Positions 812 to 48,981 of a stretch of 49,627 bases of DNA are shown here, one piece after another. The stretch covers positions 1 to 49,627 of the forward strand of contig CALVAS010000003.1 in NCBI GenBank assembly GCA_944325585.1, in the 5' to 3' direction. Under the pieces are notes generated by a model. That model was not told the DNA's origin and searched no databases. It saw nothing but the letters and a program-made list of their open reading frames with translations. Every line of letters begins with the position of its first letter. The stretch's first letter is position 1. The position numbers and the translations under genes are program-made. The DNA is from Candidatus Gastranaerophilales bacterium. Its GTDB lineage: Bacteria > Cyanobacteriota > Vampirovibrionia > Gastranaerophilales > Gastranaerophilaceae.

Positions 812-843
812 TTGCAAATATTTTACTTTTATGTTATTATAAT
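812..843 (+). promoter_or_regulatory. Predicted sigma-70-type promoter upstream of the Zn-ribbon gene
   Basis: TTGCAA (812-817) is followed after 17 nt by TATTAT (835-840); an overlapping TATAAT lies at 838-843. The leader to the ATG at 946 would be about 100 nt and very AT-rich. This promoter would separate the downstream gene-rimM-trmD unit from rlmN-dtd. Confidence 0.5.
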
Positions 844-945: not shown

Positions 946-1941
946 ATGTATGTAAACAAGTGCGTTAAGTGCGGTCGTGAATTTGAGACGAAAAACCCCA
1001 AACGAGTAATTTGCCCGGATTGTTTATATCCGGATAAAAAGATGATGATTAATCCATCTGCCGATGCAGGTTCTGATACATCTGCGGCGCAAAGCCAGTC
1101 AGGAGAACCTGAAGTTTTGAGAAGTTACAGCACAGAAGATAAACCGCAATTTTATAACAGTTATTCAAGCGGCGGAAACGAAAATCAGAACAATTACCGT
1201 CGTCCGCAGCAGCGTAATTACAATAATAACCAGGGCGGTTACAGACGTGATAACAATCGCCAGGGGTATAACAGAAATAATCAGGGCGGCTACAATCGTG
1301 ATAATCGCAGAGGCGGTTACAATCAAAGACCGCAGCAGGGCGGATTTAACAGAGGCGGATTTAATCAACGCCGTCCGCAGCAAAACAGATTTAACAAACG
1401 TCCCGGAAAACCAAAAGCTCCAAAACAGCTTCTGGTAAGCAAAGAACAGCTGGAACAAATTGAATTGCTCTATAAATCAATGCTTCCGCTTCCAAATCCG
1501 GATGCGCATGAAGTAATCGGAGAAAAAATCGGTTTGGAACCAAGAAAAGTATTTTTCGGAATTAACCTTGTAAGACAAAAACTTATGCTTCCGAAATTAC
1601 CTTTCCCGAAACGTAAACTGGCTATTTCACCGGATCAGCTTTTTGCAATTAAAAATCTTTATGAACCGTTGCTGCCGCTGCCTCCAATCGGATGCCACAA
1701 AATTATAGCAGCACAATTAAAAATGGATGAGTGGCGTGTTCACGTAGGTATCGGTTTGATTCGTTCTCAAATGGGATTACAGCGTTGGAATCAGGATAGA
1801 GCTGATGCTCCTGAAGAGTTTAAAAAGAAACCTGAAGATGCGCAGGCTGATAATGCAAATGAACAAACTGCCGAAGTGGCTGAAGAAAAACCGAAACGCG
1901 GCAGAAAACCTAAAAAGGCAGAAGAAGCCGCCGAGTCATGA
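946..1941 (+). CDS. Zn-ribbon protein with Arg/Gly/Asn-rich disordered region and two HTH-like repeats
   Basis: I do not recognise a named family for this 331-residue protein. The N-terminus has a CxxC...CxxC zinc ribbon (C6, C9, C23, C26). Residues about 75-160 are low-complexity and rich in Gly, Arg, Asn, Gln and Tyr, with repeated GGY/GGF and RRP units that resemble eukaryotic RGG RNA-binding regions. Two tandem repeats follow (about 165-217 and 228-280). They share the pattern S..QL..I..LY...LPLP...H..I...L......V..GI.L.R, which could be a pair of small helix-turn-helix folds. The tail is acidic with a KPKRGRKPKK segment resembling an AT-hook. It overlaps rimM by 4 bp (ATGA), so a role with RNA or ribosomes is plausible but inferred only from context and composition. 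Confidence 0.85.
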   Translation: MYVNKCVKCGREFETKNPKRVICPDCLYPDKKMMINPSADAGSDTSAAQSQSGEPEVLRSYSTEDKPQFYNSYSSGGNENQNNYRRPQQRNYNNNQGGYRRDNNRQGYNRNNQGGYNRDNRRGGYNQRPQQGGFNRGGFNQRRPQQNRFNKRPGKPKAPKQLLVSKEQLEQIELLYKSMLPLPNPDAHEVIGEKIGLEPRKVFFGINLVRQKLMLPKLPFPKRKLAISPDQLFAIKNLYEPLLPLPPIGCHKIIAAQLKMDEWRVHVGIGLIRSQMGLQRWNQDRADAPEEFKKKPEDAQADNANEQTAEVAEEKPKRGRKPKKAEEAAES

Positions 1942-2450
1942 GCAAATTTATATCAGTAGGTAAAATTCTGAATTTTCATGGCATTCAGGGTGAAGCTAAA
2001 GTTGGTTACTCTAAAAACCAGCAGGAATTTTTCTGCGGATTGAAGGAAGTCTTCGTAAAAGAGCAGCAGGATTATAAACCGTTAAAGATAAAAAATATAC
2101 GGCTGCATAAAAACTTTGCGATTGTAAAGTTTGACGGAATCAATTCAATTGATGAATTGATTGAATATAAAGGGGCTTTGCTTTTTGTTGACGAAAGTGT
2201 TATTCGCGAATCTCTTGATGAAGATGAGTTTTTGATTGATGAGCTTGTCGGATTAGAGGTTTTTGATAAAGACGGCAATAAGCTCGGATTTATTGTCGGA
2301 GTTTCCAACAACGGCGCTTCCGATTTGCTTTCAATAAAGACAAAGTCCAATAATATTTCATTAGTTCCGTTTGTAAAGGCTATTGTGACTGATGTAAGTC
2401 TTAAAGAGAAGAAAGTGACGATAAATAATATTGAGGGGTTACTTCAATGA
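1938..2450 (+). CDS. rimM: Ribosome maturation factor RimM
   Basis: This 170-residue protein has the RimM layout. The N-terminal beta-barrel begins with the conserved GKILNFHGIQGEAKV stretch. The C-terminal PRC-barrel has the pattern ELVGLEVFD..GN.LG and ends with an LVPFV..IV.DV segment. RimM binds S19 and helps mature the head of the 30S subunit. It overlaps both neighbours by 4 bp (ATGA) and sits directly before trmD, the classical rimM-trmD order. Confidence 0.95.
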   Translation: MSKFISVGKILNFHGIQGEAKVGYSKNQQEFFCGLKEVFVKEQQDYKPLKIKNIRLHKNFAIVKFDGINSIDELIEYKGALLFVDESVIRESLDEDEFLIDELVGLEVFDKDGNKLGFIVGVSNNGASDLLSIKTKSNNISLVPFVKAIVTDVSLKEKKVTINNIEGLLQ

Positions 2451-3118
2451 GATTCGACGTGTTGACTTTGTTTCCTGAGATGATTGAATCACATTGTTCA
2501 TACAGTATCTTAAAAAGAGCTGTTGAAAATTCAGTTATTGAAGTCAATACGATTAATCCGCGGGATTTTACTCTTGATAAGCACCGCAAAGTTGATGATA
2601 CGCCTTACGGCGGCGGGGCCGGAATGGTTTTAATGCCTCAGCCGTATGTTGACGCTTATGAAAGCGTAGAAAAAATGCCAAATTCTGTCACAATAATGCT
2701 TTCACCGCAGGGGGAACCTTTGTGCGAGAAAATTGTAAAAGATTTGGCTGGATATGAGCAGATAATCTGTTTGTGCGGGCATTATGAAGGTTTTGACGAG
2801 CGAATAAGAGAAATTATAAAACCGCGTGAAATTTCACTTGGAGATTTTGTTTTGACGGGCGGTGAACTTCCTGCGCTTTGCCTTATTGATGCGGTCAGCA
2901 GAAAATTAGAAGGAACATTAGGCAAAATAGAAAGTGCTGAAGATGACAGTTTTTCCGACGGGCTTTTAGAATATCCGCAGTACACAAAACCGCGGGAATT
3001 CAGAGGTTTGAAAGTTCCGGAAGTTCTTTTAAACGGAAATCATAAAGAAATAAACGAGTTTAGATATCAGCAGAGACTTTTAAGGACAAAGGCAAGGCGT
3101 CCTGATTTGCTGGAGTAA
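2447..3118 (+). CDS. trmD: tRNA (guanine-37-N1)-methyltransferase TrmD
   Basis: This 223-residue SPOUT-family methyltransferase makes m1G37 in tRNAs reading CNN codons and so prevents +1 frameshifting. Visible signatures are PYGGGAGMVLMP (about residue 58-69), LCGHYEGFDERI and SLGDFVLTGGELP of the trefoil-knot SAM site, and the C-terminal YTKPREFRG..VPEVLLNGNH segment. The length is slightly short of the usual 230-250 but no motif is missing. It is the last gene of the operon and converges on a minus-strand gene 12 bp away, with no clear hairpin between them. Confidence 0.96.
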   Translation: MRFDVLTLFPEMIESHCSYSILKRAVENSVIEVNTINPRDFTLDKHRKVDDTPYGGGAGMVLMPQPYVDAYESVEKMPNSVTIMLSPQGEPLCEKIVKDLAGYEQIICLCGHYEGFDERIREIIKPREISLGDFVLTGGELPALCLIDAVSRKLEGTLGKIESAEDDSFSDGLLEYPQYTKPREFRGLKVPEVLLNGNHKEINEFRYQQRLLRTKARRPDLLE

Positions 3119-11016: not shown

Positions 11017-11089
11017 AGCGGAAGACGAGACTCGAACTCGCAACAACCTGCTTGGAAGGCAGGGACTCTAGCCATTGAGTTACTTCCGC
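11017..11089 (-). tRNA. tRNA-Gly (anticodon TCC)
   Basis: Reading the minus strand, the cloverleaf is complete: acceptor GCGGAAG/CTTCCGC, D-stem ACTC/GAGT, anticodon stem CCTGC/GCAGG with loop CTTCCAA (anticodon TCC), and T-arm GCGAG-TTCGAGT-CTCGT. The discriminator base is T and the CCA tail is not encoded. The length is 73 nt and an intrinsic terminator follows. Confidence 0.95.
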
Positions 11090-30527: not shown

Positions 30528-31259
30528 TTACCAGTAATTAATCTTCCAGCCGTCAGCCATAACTTTTGCCGCACATACCATACCTCCGGCAGGGCTTTTA
30601 AGATTACAGGCATGTGTTCTTGATGAGTCCGTTAAGTTTGCATTATTCCAATCATATCCTACGGGCTTTATATTATTTTCAGCAACAACAAAGAAAAATA
30701 AATCGTGTCCTGCTATATTCGGACCTTGTGAACTTCCGTTTGTATCAATAAACAACAATTGACTGTTATCTATGCCGCCGTTTTTATTGTTTAATCCAAT
30801 ACATGTTCCGTCCGTTAGTTTTACTGACGCAGTGTTGTTAGGAAGAAACGGTGTTGAAATATAAACATTTGTCATCCACCTGTATTGTGCTTTAACAGCA
30901 TTGCCTGATGATGATGTGCTATCAAACAGTTTTCCGTCAAAGCACATCAGATTTCGGTCAGTAGTGTTGCTTTTTGAATAAATTTTTGCACCGCTAAGTT
31001 CGGGTGCTATATACTCTCTTAAAATTTTTTCAGCGTCATCCCAGTCCGGCCAGTCTTTTGTTTCACCATACTTTACCTGAGCGCGTAAAAATGCCTGAGA
31101 GATTATTGTGTATGCTTTTTGCAACCTCACTTCGGCTTCTTTTTTCTTATAGTTTTTAATAACTGCCGGCAGTGTCATACCTGCAACAATTCCGATTATA
31201 CCGAGAGTTACCAGAACTTCAGATAAAGTAAAACTGTCCCTGCAGGTTGTGCTGTTCAT
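30528..31259 (-). CDS. Prepilin-like protein with N-terminal cleavage/methylation helix
   Basis: The ATG at 31259 has GGAAAGGA upstream; the product is 243 residues. A short leader (MNSTTCRDS) precedes FTLSEVLVTLGIIGIVAGMT, the hydrophobic type IV pilin helix with Glu at +5. The residue before the cleavage site is Ser, not the canonical Gly, so processing may be slower or absent. The globular part is Asn/Thr-rich and has four cysteines, including a conserved-looking CNLKSPAGGMVCAAKVMADGWKI end. There is no G-tract here, unlike the three prepilin genes downstream. A divergent XRE gene and a long palindrome sit at its 5' end. Confidence 0.88.
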   Translation of the reverse strand: MNSTTCRDSFTLSEVLVTLGIIGIVAGMTLPAVIKNYKKKEAEVRLQKAYTIISQAFLRAQVKYGETKDWPDWDDAEKILREYIAPELSGAKIYSKSNTTDRNLMCFDGKLFDSTSSSGNAVKAQYRWMTNVYISTPFLPNNTASVKLTDGTCIGLNNKNGGIDNSQLLFIDTNGSSQGPNIAGHDLFFFVVAENNIKPVGYDWNNANLTDSSRTHACNLKSPAGGMVCAAKVMADGWKINYW

Positions 31260-31273
31260 AAAGATTCCTTTCC

Positions 31274-31302
31274 TAAAATGGAGCATAATATGCTTCATTT
31301 TA
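31274..31302. promoter_or_regulatory. 29-bp near-perfect palindrome (candidate XRE operator)
   Basis: Two 14-nt arms, TAAAATG-G-AGCATA and TATGCT-T-CATTTTA, flank a single central A with one mismatch. It lies 15-43 bp upstream of the prepilin start and 29 bp upstream of the XRE gene start. A dimeric HTH regulator could control both promoters from it. As RNA it would form a hairpin just before the prepilin Shine-Dalgarno site. Confidence 0.55.
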
Positions 31303-32463: not shown

Positions 32464-33135
32464 TTAATACATAACTCCGGAATCAAGAATTTTTTGAACT
32501 TCGGCCTGCATAATCTCATGAATTTCCGCAATCGGCTTTGTACCGTCTATGCTGATAAAGTTATATTCATTTTTCATATCATTATACTGTTCAAGACATT
32601 TTTTCTGATATATTTCAAAACTTTTGTAAAAATCTGTTGAAAAGCCTACGTCGCGTCCGCTTTCGTAAAAGTCCAGACCGGTTGTTCCGATTATTCTTTT
32701 TAAAAGAATATCGACCGGCATATCAAGATAAAATATCAAGTCAGGTTCCGGCGCATATTCGTACAAATTTTTAACCCATTCGATATTTTGTCCGCGTACA
32801 ACGTCACGCGCAAGAGCAGTGTAATAGTATCTGTCAAGAAGAACTATAAAACCGGATTTTAAAGCAGGAATAATCGTGTTTTCAAGTCTGTCCGCAAAAT
32901 CAGCCGCATATAAAAGACTGTAGGTCGTTGCATTTAACAGGTTTCTGTCTTTCGCCTCATCAATTACGTTGGCAATAAGACGCGAAGTTTTCCATTCGGA
33001 AACCATAACACCGTATGACTGGTCTTCAATGGAGCGTTTTAAAAGTTCCAGTTGAGTTGATTTTCCGCTTCCGTCAGTCCCTTCTATTACGATAAGCAAA
33101 CCTTCATAATCGTGTTTCTTTTTAAATTTTTCCAT
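32464..33135 (-). CDS. Thymidylate kinase-like protein (copy 1 of a tandem pair)
   Basis: The 223 residues start with the P-loop EGTDGSGKSTQ (about 18-28). The DRYYYTALARDVVRG segment (about 100-115) fills the position of the TMK DRY motif, and a LID-like region FYESGRDVGFS follows. The canonical enzyme phosphorylates dTMP to dTDP. The variant DRYxYTAxARDVxRG sequence marks a divergent subfamily, so substrate specificity is uncertain. It overlaps the stop of its paralogue by one base (TGATG). Confidence 0.85.
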   Translation of the reverse strand: MEKFKKKHDYEGLLIVIEGTDGSGKSTQLELLKRSIEDQSYGVMVSEWKTSRLIANVIDEAKDRNLLNATTYSLLYAADFADRLENTIIPALKSGFIVLLDRYYYTALARDVVRGQNIEWVKNLYEYAPEPDLIFYLDMPVDILLKRIIGTTGLDFYESGRDVGFSTDFYKSFEIYQKKCLEQYNDMKNEYNFISIDGTKPIAEIHEIMQAEVQKILDSGVMY

Positions 33136-33809
33136 CAGATTACAACTCCTTTAGCTTTCAAAACTTCTTTTAACATTTCTCTTATTGCGACCTGTTTTTT
33201 GTGAATTGAATCTGTTGCATCAAGTTTTACCAGACCGTATTCTTTTACCATTTTTTGATATTCTTTAATTACGCGGCCCTGAAATATCATATAACTTTCA
33301 TAAGGGTCATTGCTGAGTTTTAAATCCATTCCGGCTTCATAGAATTTTGGCGCACGGTTTGAACAGATTCTTTCCATTGAAGTTTTGGGATTGATGTCAA
33401 AATAAATTGCCAGATCCGGTTTTATTGCAAAATCATAAACTTTTCTGACCCACTGCGGATCAACGCCTCTTGCAACATCACGGGCAAAGGCTGTGTAGGC
33501 GTATCTGTCTGCAAGAACTATAAAACCTGCTTTTAAAGCCGGATCAATCACCTGCTTAAGTCTGTCTGCAAAGTCAACAGCATGGAGAAGTGAAAAGGTT
33601 CTTGGCGAAAGCATATTTTTCTTCTTGGCCAGCTTTGTTGTCTGGCAAATCAATTCAGAGGAATTCCATTCGGTAAAAATTACATCCTGTCCTATTGATT
33701 TAAGCCAGTCGCGCAAAAGTGCAAGCTGGGTAGATTTTCCGCTTCCGTCGATACCTTCGACACAGATTAATGTTCCTTTTAAGTTGTGTTTTTCCGTTAA
33801 TTTAGACAA
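33135..33809 (-). CDS. Thymidylate kinase-like protein (copy 2 of a tandem pair)
   Basis: A start at 33809 (TTG, with AAGGAG 9 nt upstream) gives 224 residues and aligns residue by residue with the start of the neighbouring paralogue. A further TTG at 33869 has no ribosome site and lies inside the upstream gene. The motifs are EGIDGSGKSTQ, DRYAYTAFARDVARG and KFYEAGMDLKLS. It is roughly half identical to copy 1 by eye. It is the third gene of an ilvC-HD-TMK-TMK minus-strand run. Confidence 0.83.
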   Translation of the reverse strand: MSKLTEKHNLKGTLICVEGIDGSGKSTQLALLRDWLKSIGQDVIFTEWNSSELICQTTKLAKKKNMLSPRTFSLLHAVDFADRLKQVIDPALKAGFIVLADRYAYTAFARDVARGVDPQWVRKVYDFAIKPDLAIYFDINPKTSMERICSNRAPKFYEAGMDLKLSNDPYESYMIFQGRVIKEYQKMVKEYGLVKLDATDSIHKKQVAIREMLKEVLKAKGVVI

Positions 33810-33855
33810 ATCTTTTGACTCCTTATGTTTTTTGTCAGGTGAATTATTATCCGTA

Positions 33856-34692
33856 TTAGTCTTTTTCAAGCAGCGCAGTGTTTATTTTGCCGAATTTTGC
33901 TGACATATTGTCTATTAAATGTATAAGATACAGTTCAGGCTCCAGATCACGCTCGTTAAGATCAATGATAGCGCCCCATTCTGCTCTGCCGTGGTGTGCT
34001 GCAATCATTTTGGCAACTTCTTTAAAACCGTTGGTCATACAGATTGAAAAACCGTATTGTGAATGTGTTAACCATTCTTGGCGGAAATTTTCGTCATAGT
34101 CAATCAGTCCGGTTTCTAAATCTATGGTGTATTCAAAAATTTTGCCGATATCGTGGAGAATACAGGCTGCATAAATATTGTCGCGATTCGGTTTGTAATC
34201 CATTGCATCCATATTTAATTCCGCAAATTTCAAGCATTCTACCGTATGCACCAGAAGCCCGCCTATGTAATTGTGGTGCATAAGTTTTGCGGCAGGTGCA
34301 GTTTTAATTATTTCCTTATTGGTTTCAAAATAATTTTCCAAAAAGTTTCTGAGCTTTTCGTTTTTGATTTTGTCAAAATAGGAGGTTAATTCTCTGTAAT
34401 AAACTTCCCGTTCTGTTTCATTCAAGCCCATTTTTGCTTCTTTTACCAGTTCAAGCGAATTGATAAGACAGTTGTTGAACTTTTCGTTAAAAGAGCCGGA
34501 AACAATTCTCAAAAGGTTCCCGCATCTGAAAAGTTTGCTGTCCATGCGGTTTAAGGCTTCTTCCCAGAGAACACAGTTTAAGATGGTGCCGTCTTCAGGA
34601 TTTTTAAGCTGAAGTTTGCCCATTTTGGTTCCTGCTTTTGTGTCGCCTATTGAAAAAATTACTACTTCATAAATTATATCTGTACTGAACAT
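33856..34692 (-). CDS. HD-domain protein, YhaM 3'-5' exoribonuclease-like
   Basis: The 278-residue protein has an N-terminal OB-fold-like part (about 1-90) and an HD phosphohydrolase domain. Metal ligands are seen in HHNYIGGLLVHTVEC, the ILHDIGKIFEY dyad, THSQYG and AAHHGRAEWG. This architecture matches YhaM/CBF1-type 3'-5' exoribonucleases. An AAGG site supports the start. It lies 9 bp after ilvC, and its end overlaps only the unlikely long form of the next gene. Confidence 0.85.
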   Translation of the reverse strand: MFSTDIIYEVVIFSIGDTKAGTKMGKLQLKNPEDGTILNCVLWEEALNRMDSKLFRCGNLLRIVSGSFNEKFNNCLINSLELVKEAKMGLNETEREVYYRELTSYFDKIKNEKLRNFLENYFETNKEIIKTAPAAKLMHHNYIGGLLVHTVECLKFAELNMDAMDYKPNRDNIYAACILHDIGKIFEYTIDLETGLIDYDENFRQEWLTHSQYGFSICMTNGFKEVAKMIAAHHGRAEWGAIIDLNERDLEPELYLIHLIDNMSAKFGKINTALLEKD

Positions 34693-35861: not shown

Positions 35862-36702
35862 ATGATGAAAAAGCGCGCTATGACTGGATTTACGGGGGGG
35901 GGGGGCAAGTAAGAAACTTCTCCTTAAACGGACAAAGCAAAAAGATTTAAAAACGGGATTTACATTATCTGAAGTGTTAATAACGCTAGGCATAATCGGC
36001 ATAGTAGCAGCAATGACTCTTCCGGCATTGATAGCTAATCATCGCAAGCAGGTAACGTTAACAAAAGTCAAGCAGACTTACAATATACTTAGTAATGCCT
36101 TAGAGCGTGCAAAAGTGGATTACGATACCGAGGTAAACAACTGGTATGTGCCGACTGAAGGTTCTAATCTGGAAAAGAGTATGTACTTTGCCGAAACTTA
36201 TATGATTCCGTATTTACAGGTTACACATTACTGTAAAGATAAATATGTTGCACCTTATTGCAATTTGAAACCTAAAAGATTAGATGACTCAGTGTCCGGT
36301 GAAATTATGGGGCCTGCCGGTGACGGTTATGGAACAGCTTTTGTACTTAATAACGGCACGGTAGTAAATGTTCGAGTCGGGGCAATGACGGGGGCAGAGA
36401 CAGATCAAGGAGGGATAAGCCGAATTTGGATAATGTTTGATATAGATGGCCCGCAAGGATTTAATAAACTTGGATATGATACATTTATGATAGAACTTGG
36501 CGGTGCTGAAGGTTATAAGAAAAATAATAATGCAGACAGAAACAAGTTTCTGCCTTATGGATATGATGCGTCAAAAAATTGTGATTACTACGTTTCGGAT
36601 ATGAATCATGCCTGCAATCCGAATGTTACATACAGTGGTTCATTTTGTCTTGCCTATATTGTTTGTAACGGCTGGGATTTCGGCGACAAATACCCGTGGT
36701 AG
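35862..36702 (+). CDS. Prepilin-like protein A; start separated from body by a G12 tract (out of frame as sequenced)
   Basis: A CGAGGAG site precedes ATGATG at 35862. That frame reads MMKKRAMTGFTGGGGK and stops at 35910. The prepilin frame is open from the G-tract onward (ASKKLLLKRTKQKDLKTG, then FTLSEVLITLGIIGIVAAMT) to 36702, but it has an upstream TGA and no ATG, GTG or TTG start before the cleavage motif. One G fewer (11) would fuse the frames. The Gly/Phe cleavage site and Glu+5 are canonical. The mature protein has about 250 residues, several cysteines, and ends ...CNGWDFGDKYPW. It is likely a minor pilin or pseudopilin-type surface protein. The GTG at 35974 is an unlikely start, since it would delete the motif. 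Confidence 0.8.
35894..35905 (+). repeat. G12 homopolymer in the prepilin A leader
   Basis: Twelve consecutive G lie between TTTAC and CAAGTAAG. Length 11, 14 or 8 would put the ATG in frame with the prepilin; the observed 12 does not. Such tracts mutate by slipped-strand mispairing. Confidence 0.9.
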
Positions 36703-40300: not shown

Positions 40301-41144
40301 ATGAAAAGGCAGACTATGACTGAATTTACGGGGGGGGGGGGCAAGTAAGAACCGTCTCCTTAAACGGGAAAAAAAAAAAGATTTAAAAACGGGATTTACA
40401 TTATCTGAAGTGTTGATAACGCTCGGCATAATCGGCATAGTAGCAGCAATGACCCTTCCTGCATTGATAGCTAATCATCGCAAGCAGGTAACATTAACAA
40501 AAGTCAAGCAGACTTACAATGTATTAAGCAATGCATTAGAGCGAGCAAAAGTAGATTATGATACCGAGGTAAACAACTGGTATGTGCCGACTGAAGGTAC
40601 CCAGCTTGAAAAGAGCAAATTTTTTGCAGAAACCTACATGCTTCCATATTTGCAGGTGTCGACATATTGTAAAGAAAGGTCAACAAATCCCTATTGCCTG
40701 ATAACATATACCCATTTGAAAGGTGAGGAATATGAAGTTCTAGGGCCCTCAAACAGCGGAAGCGGTGTATCTTTTGTTTTAAATAGCGGAGTTGTGGTTG
40801 GTGTAACTGTTGGAGCAATTTCTACAACAAATCCGGGGGATCCTTATGACGAAACCATAAGCCGGATAAAGATTACCTTTGATATAGACGGTCCGCAAGG
40901 ATATAACAAAAAGGGTTATGATGTATTTATGATAGAGCTCGGCGGGGCTGATGGCCCAAGAATAGGTAATAGAGCCGACAGAAATAAATTTCTGCCATAT
41001 CTTTATGACGCCTCCAAAGACTGTGATTACTATGTATCAGATAACAATCATGCATGTAATAACAATGCAACATACGGAGGAAGTATGTGCCTTGCCTATA
41101 TTGTTTGCAACGGCTGGGATTTCGGCGACAAATACCCGTGGTAA
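40301..41144 (+). CDS. Prepilin-like protein B; start separated from body by a G12 tract (out of frame as sequenced)
   Basis: AAAGGAGG precedes ATG 40301, whose frame reads MKRQTMTEFTGGGGK and stops at 40346. The prepilin frame opens at the tract (ASKNRLLKREKKKDLKTG then FTLSEVLITLGIIGIVAAMT) and runs to 41144 with no usable start of its own. Deleting one G restores a single frame. The body is a close paralogue of prepilin A: near-identical for the first ~65 mature residues and again over the last ~45, divergent in the middle. An A11 run at 40369-40379 is a second possible slippage site. Confidence 0.8.
40330..40341 (+). repeat. G12 homopolymer in the prepilin B leader
   Basis: Twelve G lie between TTTAC and CAAGTAAG, the same length and flanks as at 35894. 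Confidence 0.9.
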
Positions 41145-48158: not shown

Positions 48159-48981
48159 ATGAAAAAGTGCACTATGACTGAATTTGCGGGGGGGGGGGGC
48201 AAGTAAGAAACGTCTCCTTAAACAGGAAAAACAAAAAGATTTACAAACAGGATTTACATTATCAGAAGTTCTTATAACGCTCGGCATAATCGGAATCGTG
48301 GCGGCAATGACACTACCTGCGTTAATTAATAAATATCAGGAAAGAGTACTGGTTGTCTCTGCCAAGAGGTCTTATGCAATAGTAACAAATGCTTTAATGC
48401 GGTGGAATGCGGATAATGATATGACAGGTGATTATCTATCATTTTTTTCTTCTTACGGAAGTGATGTTGAGCGGCTTCGGGTATTAACTAAATATATGAA
48501 TACGGTACAATTTTGTACGCAGGATAAAGTGGAACCTTGCGGCGGTAAATATGAAATAAAGCAGTATAAAAAATTAAATGACGGACACGGGAATACTGCT
48601 CAATTTGATTTAATAAACTGGTGGCGTGCTGTTCTTGTAGACGGTACTTTTATAACGCTTCAATCCGAAGTTGAAAACGGCAGTTGTATTCATAAATATT
48701 GGTCTTATGAAACTGATGCGGACGGCAATTATATCCCTGATGATTCCAGTCCTAACGGATATAAAGGAAAAGAAACTACCTCATACACCTGCGGCGTAAT
48801 TGTTATTGATACAAACGGTTTAAAATCTCCGAATCAGGTGGGACGCGATGTTTTCGGGATTGCCTTTTCGCAGAAAGGTCCGGAGGAAAGCCAGAATTCA
48901 ACACGCGGAAACATAAATTATGTACTTCAAAATGACAAATTAATTGATACAGAGGATTATACTATCGGAAAGTTTGAGTAA
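48159..48981 (+). CDS. Prepilin-like protein C; start separated from body by a G12 tract (out of frame as sequenced)
   Basis: AAGAGGAGG precedes ATG 48159. Its frame reads MKKCTMTEFAGGGGK and stops at 48204. The prepilin frame continues through the tract (ASKKRLLKQEKQKDLQTG then FTLSEVLITLGIIGIVAAMT) to 48981. A TTG at 48184, inside the tract's flank, is a formal start in this frame but has no ribosome site, and in copies A and B that codon is TTA. The leader and helix match copies A and B. From residue ~25 of the mature protein the sequence is unrelated (NKYQERVLVVSAKRSYAIV...), with four or more cysteines. It is joined to the mur operon by a 21-bp gap. Confidence 0.8.
48188..48199 (+). repeat. 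G12 homopolymer in the prepilin C leader
   Basis: Twelve G lie between TTTGC and CAAGTAAG. Length and right flank are identical to the tracts at 35894 and 40330. Confidence 0.9.

Follow-up and report, generated by a model that had tools for sequence, protein, structure and literature searches.

In the double homeodomain of DUX4 (HD1-HD2; PDB 5zfy, 5z6z and 6e8c), two three-helix units stand in tandem with a short linker between them, and helix 3 of homeodomains carries the signature W48-F49-x-N51-x-R53, the numbering used below. Three-helix helix-turn-helix (HTH) domains are also present in bacterial regulators and transposases (e.g., response regulators, LysR and TnpE), which usually have one HTH together with a sensor or catalytic domain, while the AT-hook has R-G-R-P as its core. 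A different kind of likeness is offered by FUS, a nucleic-acid-binding protein with a disordered region that contains arginine and tyrosine; contacts between these two residues are described as contributing to FUS phase separation (PMC5927716). The gene described here codes for a protein of 331 aa in which likenesses to these systems meet. We read it, with about even confidence, as a lineage-specific nucleic-acid-binding hub that leans towards RNA and translation and perhaps regulates itself through its leader.

The gene occupies positions 946-1941 (+ strand) of the window, i.e., the whole stretch of 49,627 nucleotides that was analysed, which lies within contig C3 of a genome of 1.76 Mb (96% complete). 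The open reading frame is real and conserved, and its product is composed of an N-terminal four-cysteine ribbon, a disordered arm rich in R, N, G, Q and Y, two repeats and a basic tail. No Pfam or NCBIfam match of the protein exceeded the curated cut-off, and PHROGs gave nothing of relevance (one weak match to the tail, E 0.53); the statement of the initial annotation that it belongs to no described family stands for these three collections. Likewise, a literature search limited to titles and abstract openings found no publication describing it, and PDB sequence matches of the tail to designed repeat proteins (E of at least 0.076) were rejected as charged-helix noise. What that annotation had observed at 946-1941 is confirmed, and what it had made of the observation is partly supported.

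The zinc-ribbon-like module comprises residues 1-36 (946-1053, + strand), with the pattern C6-x2-C9-x13-C23-x2-C26. The same spacing (C-x2-C-x13-C-x2-C), with its two cysteine pairs, is present in 110 of the 113 family proteins, the remaining three being cut by a contig end, and residues 1-30 have a pLDDT of 84-91 in the full-length model; the zinc ribbon proposed earlier is thus borne out. No named ribbon family in Pfam or NCBIfam is reached by a curated score. For instance, the profile of RNA polymerase subunit P (NF001605) scores 16.8 bits against a cut-off of 63, and gives weak matches in 18 of 32 family members.

The arm follows at residues 37-158 (1054-1419, + strand). Between residues 75 and 160, R, G, N, Y and Q make up 79% of the sequence and the net charge is +17. 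When the 78 stop-to-stop frames of at least 100 aa in the window were ranked by their best 85-residue low-complexity stretch, this one came first (0.84, the next frame reaching 0.45). The pLDDT of residues 35-155 is below 50 in the full-length model (31-47 by blocks), as expected of a disordered region. Across 110 proteins (the three truncated ones were dropped before counting), the sequence of the arm varies and its composition is kept, with medians of about 18% R, 1% K and 9% Y. Its arginine, tyrosine and glycine are of the kind found in disordered RGG- and FUS-like condensing proteins, and in families f41, f45 and f46 the asparagine is swapped for glycine and proline. The Arg/Gly/Asn/Tyr region that had been noted is therefore present, although in the species of the window it is richer in asparagine than in RGG. 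The protein had also been said to end in KRGRKPKK. This basic AT-hook-like motif exists, at residues 317-324 (1894-1917, + strand), but seven further residues follow it, and it reads RGRKP where the AT-hook core has RGRP, which some relatives do contain. As RGR[KPR] is found in the tails of only 84 of the 113 proteins and is missing in some genera, this piece is common yet dispensable.

The two repeats lie at residues 162-217 (1429-1596, + strand) and 225-280 (1618-1785, + strand). A gapless alignment of the two spans 56 residues and has a score of 94, which is 17 SD above that of shuffled sequences (22.3 ± 4.2, n=5000, largest 46). Both are almost invariant among the family proteins, with conservation extending over the whole domain and not over helix 3 alone. 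AlphaFold2 predicts two three-helix units with a mean pLDDT of 80 and a pTM of 0.49, a value at which the single HTH units deserve more trust than their relative placement. The duplicated HTH-like domain had been recognised before and is upheld by both the alignment and the predicted units; the structure prediction that had been suggested for residues 165-280 agrees with an HTH-like nature and adds a homeodomain-like fold that had been missed. The finding that had been named as speaking against the earlier view, namely that the repeats are clearly homologous to a characterised family whose function is unrelated, was not encountered.

The three-helix HTH fold of the homeodomain (PF00046) is predicted for both repeats in both models. 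With the two-repeat model, four DUX4 double-homeodomain structures head the VIA-align results (Z 7.2 to 6.6, 110-113 residues), the best of them with 110 aligned residues, an rmsd of 3.8, an identity of about 16% and a Z of 7.2 that is modest, being inside the range reached by models through chance. With the full-length model, homeodomains make up most of the 50 rows (best Z 6.1). Since the Z-scores are modest and the best Foldseek E is 0.23, we take the modelled resemblance to be a likeness of fold and not kinship. The cut-off of PF00046 (22.9 bits) is not reached by the window protein (16.1), the two-repeat piece (19.7) or repeat 1 alone (15.0), and repeat 2 of the window protein alone gives no match. 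Among 20 relatives, 16 match at E ≤1 and one exceeds the cut-off (27.6 vs 22.9 bits), and repeat 1 accounts for most of the matches, with one relative matching on repeat 2. A homeobox protein comes first in the PDB profile search (E 0.38, not significant alone), and a six-frame search of the own genome with PF00046 found no match at E ≤0.1, so it is relatives, pieces and models that carry the homeodomain likeness.

The PF00046 match ends at position 45-46, just ahead of WFxN. At W48, F49, N51 and R53, repeat 1 has G, I, L and R, only the last being kept; its helix 3 reads VF[FA][GA]INLxRxK in 112 of 112 sequences, and repeat 2 reads EWR[VA]HV[GA]I, with the arginine kept, in all of them. These 112 comprise the window protein, 99 of the 100 nearer proteins and 12 divergent ones; the protein of locus L092, left out by the search pattern, has the same helix-3 motifs and is added in the set of 113. 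As the WFxN signature was found in none of the 112 and only the arginine is kept, the protein is not filed as a homeodomain protein and is, to judge by its sequence, homeodomain-like.

Upstream of the gene, a consensus scan indicated a promoter-like site at 812-840 (+ strand), formed by TTGCAA, a spacer of 17 nt and an extended -10 TATTAT. The scan yielded 10 sites in the region against 6.7 expected and is weak alone. The -10 reads TATAAT in many relatives, and when 25 leaders, picked by hand from the window and 80 further loci, were aligned, the columns around it proved to be some of the few without variation. The 12-base element AATTAAGAGGCT (928-939, + strand), which is new here and had been missed by the initial annotation, lies over a clear ribosome-binding site, 6 nt 5′ of the start codon. 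It forms 12 consecutive invariant columns in the 25 leaders, for which identity averages 59% when every column is counted. A purine block further upstream (GAGGAGTAAT; 877-886, + strand) recurs with changes in many relatives and is a weak feature. The 10-base core TTAAGAGGCT appears a single time at each of the 80 loci (both strands of their 665,381 bases contain 80 copies), ends 6-9 bases 5′ of the start and, in the leaders inspected, stands ahead of the 331-aa gene. The own genome contains a single copy of AATTAAGAGGCT and three of TTAAGAGGCT, the other two of which are not ahead of an ATG. The pattern TTAAGAGGCTN{5,10}ATG was found in 103 of 146 genomes of the family, and each of the seven own-genus genomes in this sample has one match at the start of the 331-aa gene, two of them with extra matches elsewhere.

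Among the 100 loci tabulated for the leader (the 12 most distant ones were left out), the element is missing from 10 of the 93 rimM-linked loci, which belong to more distant genera, and from all seven of the unlinked loci examined; consequently, it characterises the nearer genera. It is not palindromic, and RNA structure prediction gave no pairs in the leader. Because of its overlap with the Shine-Dalgarno site, some of the constancy may reflect an ordinary initiation signal. The Shine-Dalgarno part accounts for AAGAGG, and the constancy of the flanking bases is the unusual part.

The common gene order is dtd, the 331-aa gene, rimM and trmD. The last two are at 1938-2450 and 2447-3118 (both + strand), and their identities are confirmed above cut-off by TIGR02273 for rimM and by TIGR00088 and NF000648 for trmD; dtd is likewise confirmed by NCBIfam. 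In E. coli, rpsP precedes rimM, whereas in the own genome rpsP is on contig C12 and the 331-aa gene takes that place. The TGA of the gene overlaps the ATG of rimM at 1938 (ATGA), as first reported. This overlap recurs in 19 of the 93 loci, among 112, in which rimM-trmD lie downstream at gaps of -11 to +23 bases. The 112 consist of the best 80 of 309 relatives found, a set biased to near relatives, 20 divergent loci chosen by hand and 12 divergent ones from the class sample. In the other 19 (divergent genera and other families) rimM is not near. The linkage is thus not stable across the family and is lineage-specific, which led us to discard a universal rimM operon. The ribosome-assembly role that had been suggested from the overlap is weakened by the same counts, i.e., the 19 unlinked loci and an ATGA in only 19 of 93.

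At unlinked loci the neighbours are ffh (L094), the gene for S6 (L092), nusG (L141) and gatB (L142 and L143), and divergent serine dehydratase-like genes (sdaAB) adjoin the gene in families f41 and f46. Neighbours were profiled at L094, L092, L141, L142 and L132, and named by eye at the rest. This mix of translation, secretion and transcription genes is suggestive, not proof. Two divergent genera also encode a small protein with cysteine pairs upstream of the gene, in divergent orientation (L102, 3191-3661; L094, 3217-3693). Elsewhere in the window, a tRNA-Gly (TCC) at 11017-11089 (- strand) is the sole Rfam match, and several scattered proteins that look pseudopilin-like by eye (30528-31298, 35974-36702, 40410-41144 and 48184-48981) have TLGIIGIVA.MTLPA in common near the N-terminus. 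Two adjacent similar frames at 32464-33869 (223 and 244 aa), with the P-loops GTDGSGKST and GIDGSGKST seen by eye, are perhaps a thymidylate-kinase-like tandem duplicate.

With the window protein as query, matches came from 131 of the 292 phylum genomes searched, all in families f1 or f2 of the own order; no f1 genome is among the misses listed, which are ordered by kinship and open with another family. A profile of the domain gave strong matches in all 23 genomes of f1, f41, f45 and f46 in the class sample and in none of the 37 sampled genomes of f3, f40, f42, f43 and f44 (one fragment with E = 0.09 was not counted). A broader profile matched 77 of 156 class genomes (60 from f1, nine from f41, four from f45 and four from f46), with a single match in each of the 77. 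In the phylum it matched 172 of 385, adding f47, and every matching genome listed belongs to this class. According to these counts within the phylum, this is a single-copy, lineage-specific gene that belongs to part of one class. Many relatives come from metagenome-assembled genomes named Candidatus Gastranaerophilales, Melainabacteria or Cyanobacteria, and a few bear other names. No relatives were found in plasmids, phages or viral contigs; a mobile-element protein was considered, and there is no sign of one.

By our estimate, nucleic-acid binding is likely. In the hub that we propose, the two HTH domains would hold on to two adjacent segments of DNA or RNA, the Arg/Tyr arm would provide loose multivalent contact with RNA and probably self-association, and the ribbon would contact nucleic acid or a partner (e.g., the ribosome or RNA polymerase). 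One of the least certain steps is the placement of the hub on the side of RNA and translation, which is a lean over the DNA side. The proposal as a whole has in its favour the composition of the arm, with much arginine and tyrosine and little lysine, and the translation and transcription genes that adjoin in several unrelated placements, although translation genes are lacking next to several divergent loci (sdaAB and others). As uncertain is the hypothesis that the protein keeps its own level constant by binding AATTAAGAGGCT over the ribosome-binding site; in most of the own order, this would set the levels of the downstream rimM and trmD as well. The boldest form of this proposal, a bacterial analogue of a FUS-type RNP organiser, single-copy and lineage-wide, with a double-homeodomain-like reader that would condense with RNA through its arm and set its own and the rimM-trmD level through the unique 12-base leader, seems unlikely.

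Neither DNA nor RNA binding follows from the HTH fold that is shared, and a DNA-binding protein has to be weighed against the hub. Such a protein, nucleoid-associated or a global transcription factor, would read DNA with its HTHs, hold the AT-rich minor groove with its tail, condense the nucleoid with its arm and use the leader as a DNA operator. We regard this as possible, with chances clearly short of even. Its best structural matches are DNA-bound homeodomains, an RGR tail is present in 84 of 113 proteins, and each genome sampled from the family has one copy; by contrast, the base-reading residues W48 and N51 of homeodomains are not kept, each repeat has a charge of only +3, the tail motif is gone in some genera, and the leader lies over a ribosome-binding site and is not palindromic. 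The interpretation of the initial annotation, a strict ribosome-assembly or translation factor co-expressed with RimM and TrmD, would fit the gene order in 93 of 112 loci and the proximity of S6, ffh and gatB in others. It is quite unlikely given that 19 of 112 loci have lost the link and that f3, f40, f42, f43 and f44 (0/37 genomes) make ribosomes without the protein.

It might also be argued that the homeodomain likeness arises by chance from a common three-helix HTH, and that the repeats are a protein-protein module making no contact with nucleic acids. The middling Z, the sub-threshold homeodomain matches in three of 14 control genomes (none above cut-off) and the conservation over the whole domain, not just helix 3, would agree with this explanation. 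However, two separate models and a Pfam profile indicate the same family, and a basic arm is attached to the repeats, which leaves it very unlikely. The hub with a lean towards RNA and translation remains the reading that we prefer.

These gut bacteria are relatives of cyanobacteria, and the class to which they belong is known mostly from metagenomes and has hardly been studied by genetics. The constancy of the protein, present in one copy per sampled family genome and belonging to no named family in the collections searched, points to a missing part of the machinery by which they express their genes. With a tandem homeodomain-like module and a FUS-like arm in one bacterial protein, the division of labour between folded readers and sticky arms could be studied in a simple system, and the leader element makes the self-regulation hypothesis directly testable.

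Each of the known systems covers part of this architecture. NF001605 (RNA polymerase subunit P) and Pfam Zn_ribbon_8 have the same paired-cysteine pattern, but the scores are far below the curated cut-off. Bacterial HTH regulators and transposase HTHs share the three-helix HTH, and some are among the structural matches, although none of those matches combines a ribbon, an arm and twin HTHs. With FUS-type regions the protein shares arginine and tyrosine in a disordered region, whereas its own sequence is bacterial and rich in Asn or in Gly and Pro; we claim no homology here, and the arm is a candidate for condensation only. The nearest likeness in fold is the tandem of DUX4, from which this protein differs in being bacterial, in lacking the WFxN of helix 3, and in adding a zinc ribbon and a disordered arm to the two homeodomain-like units.
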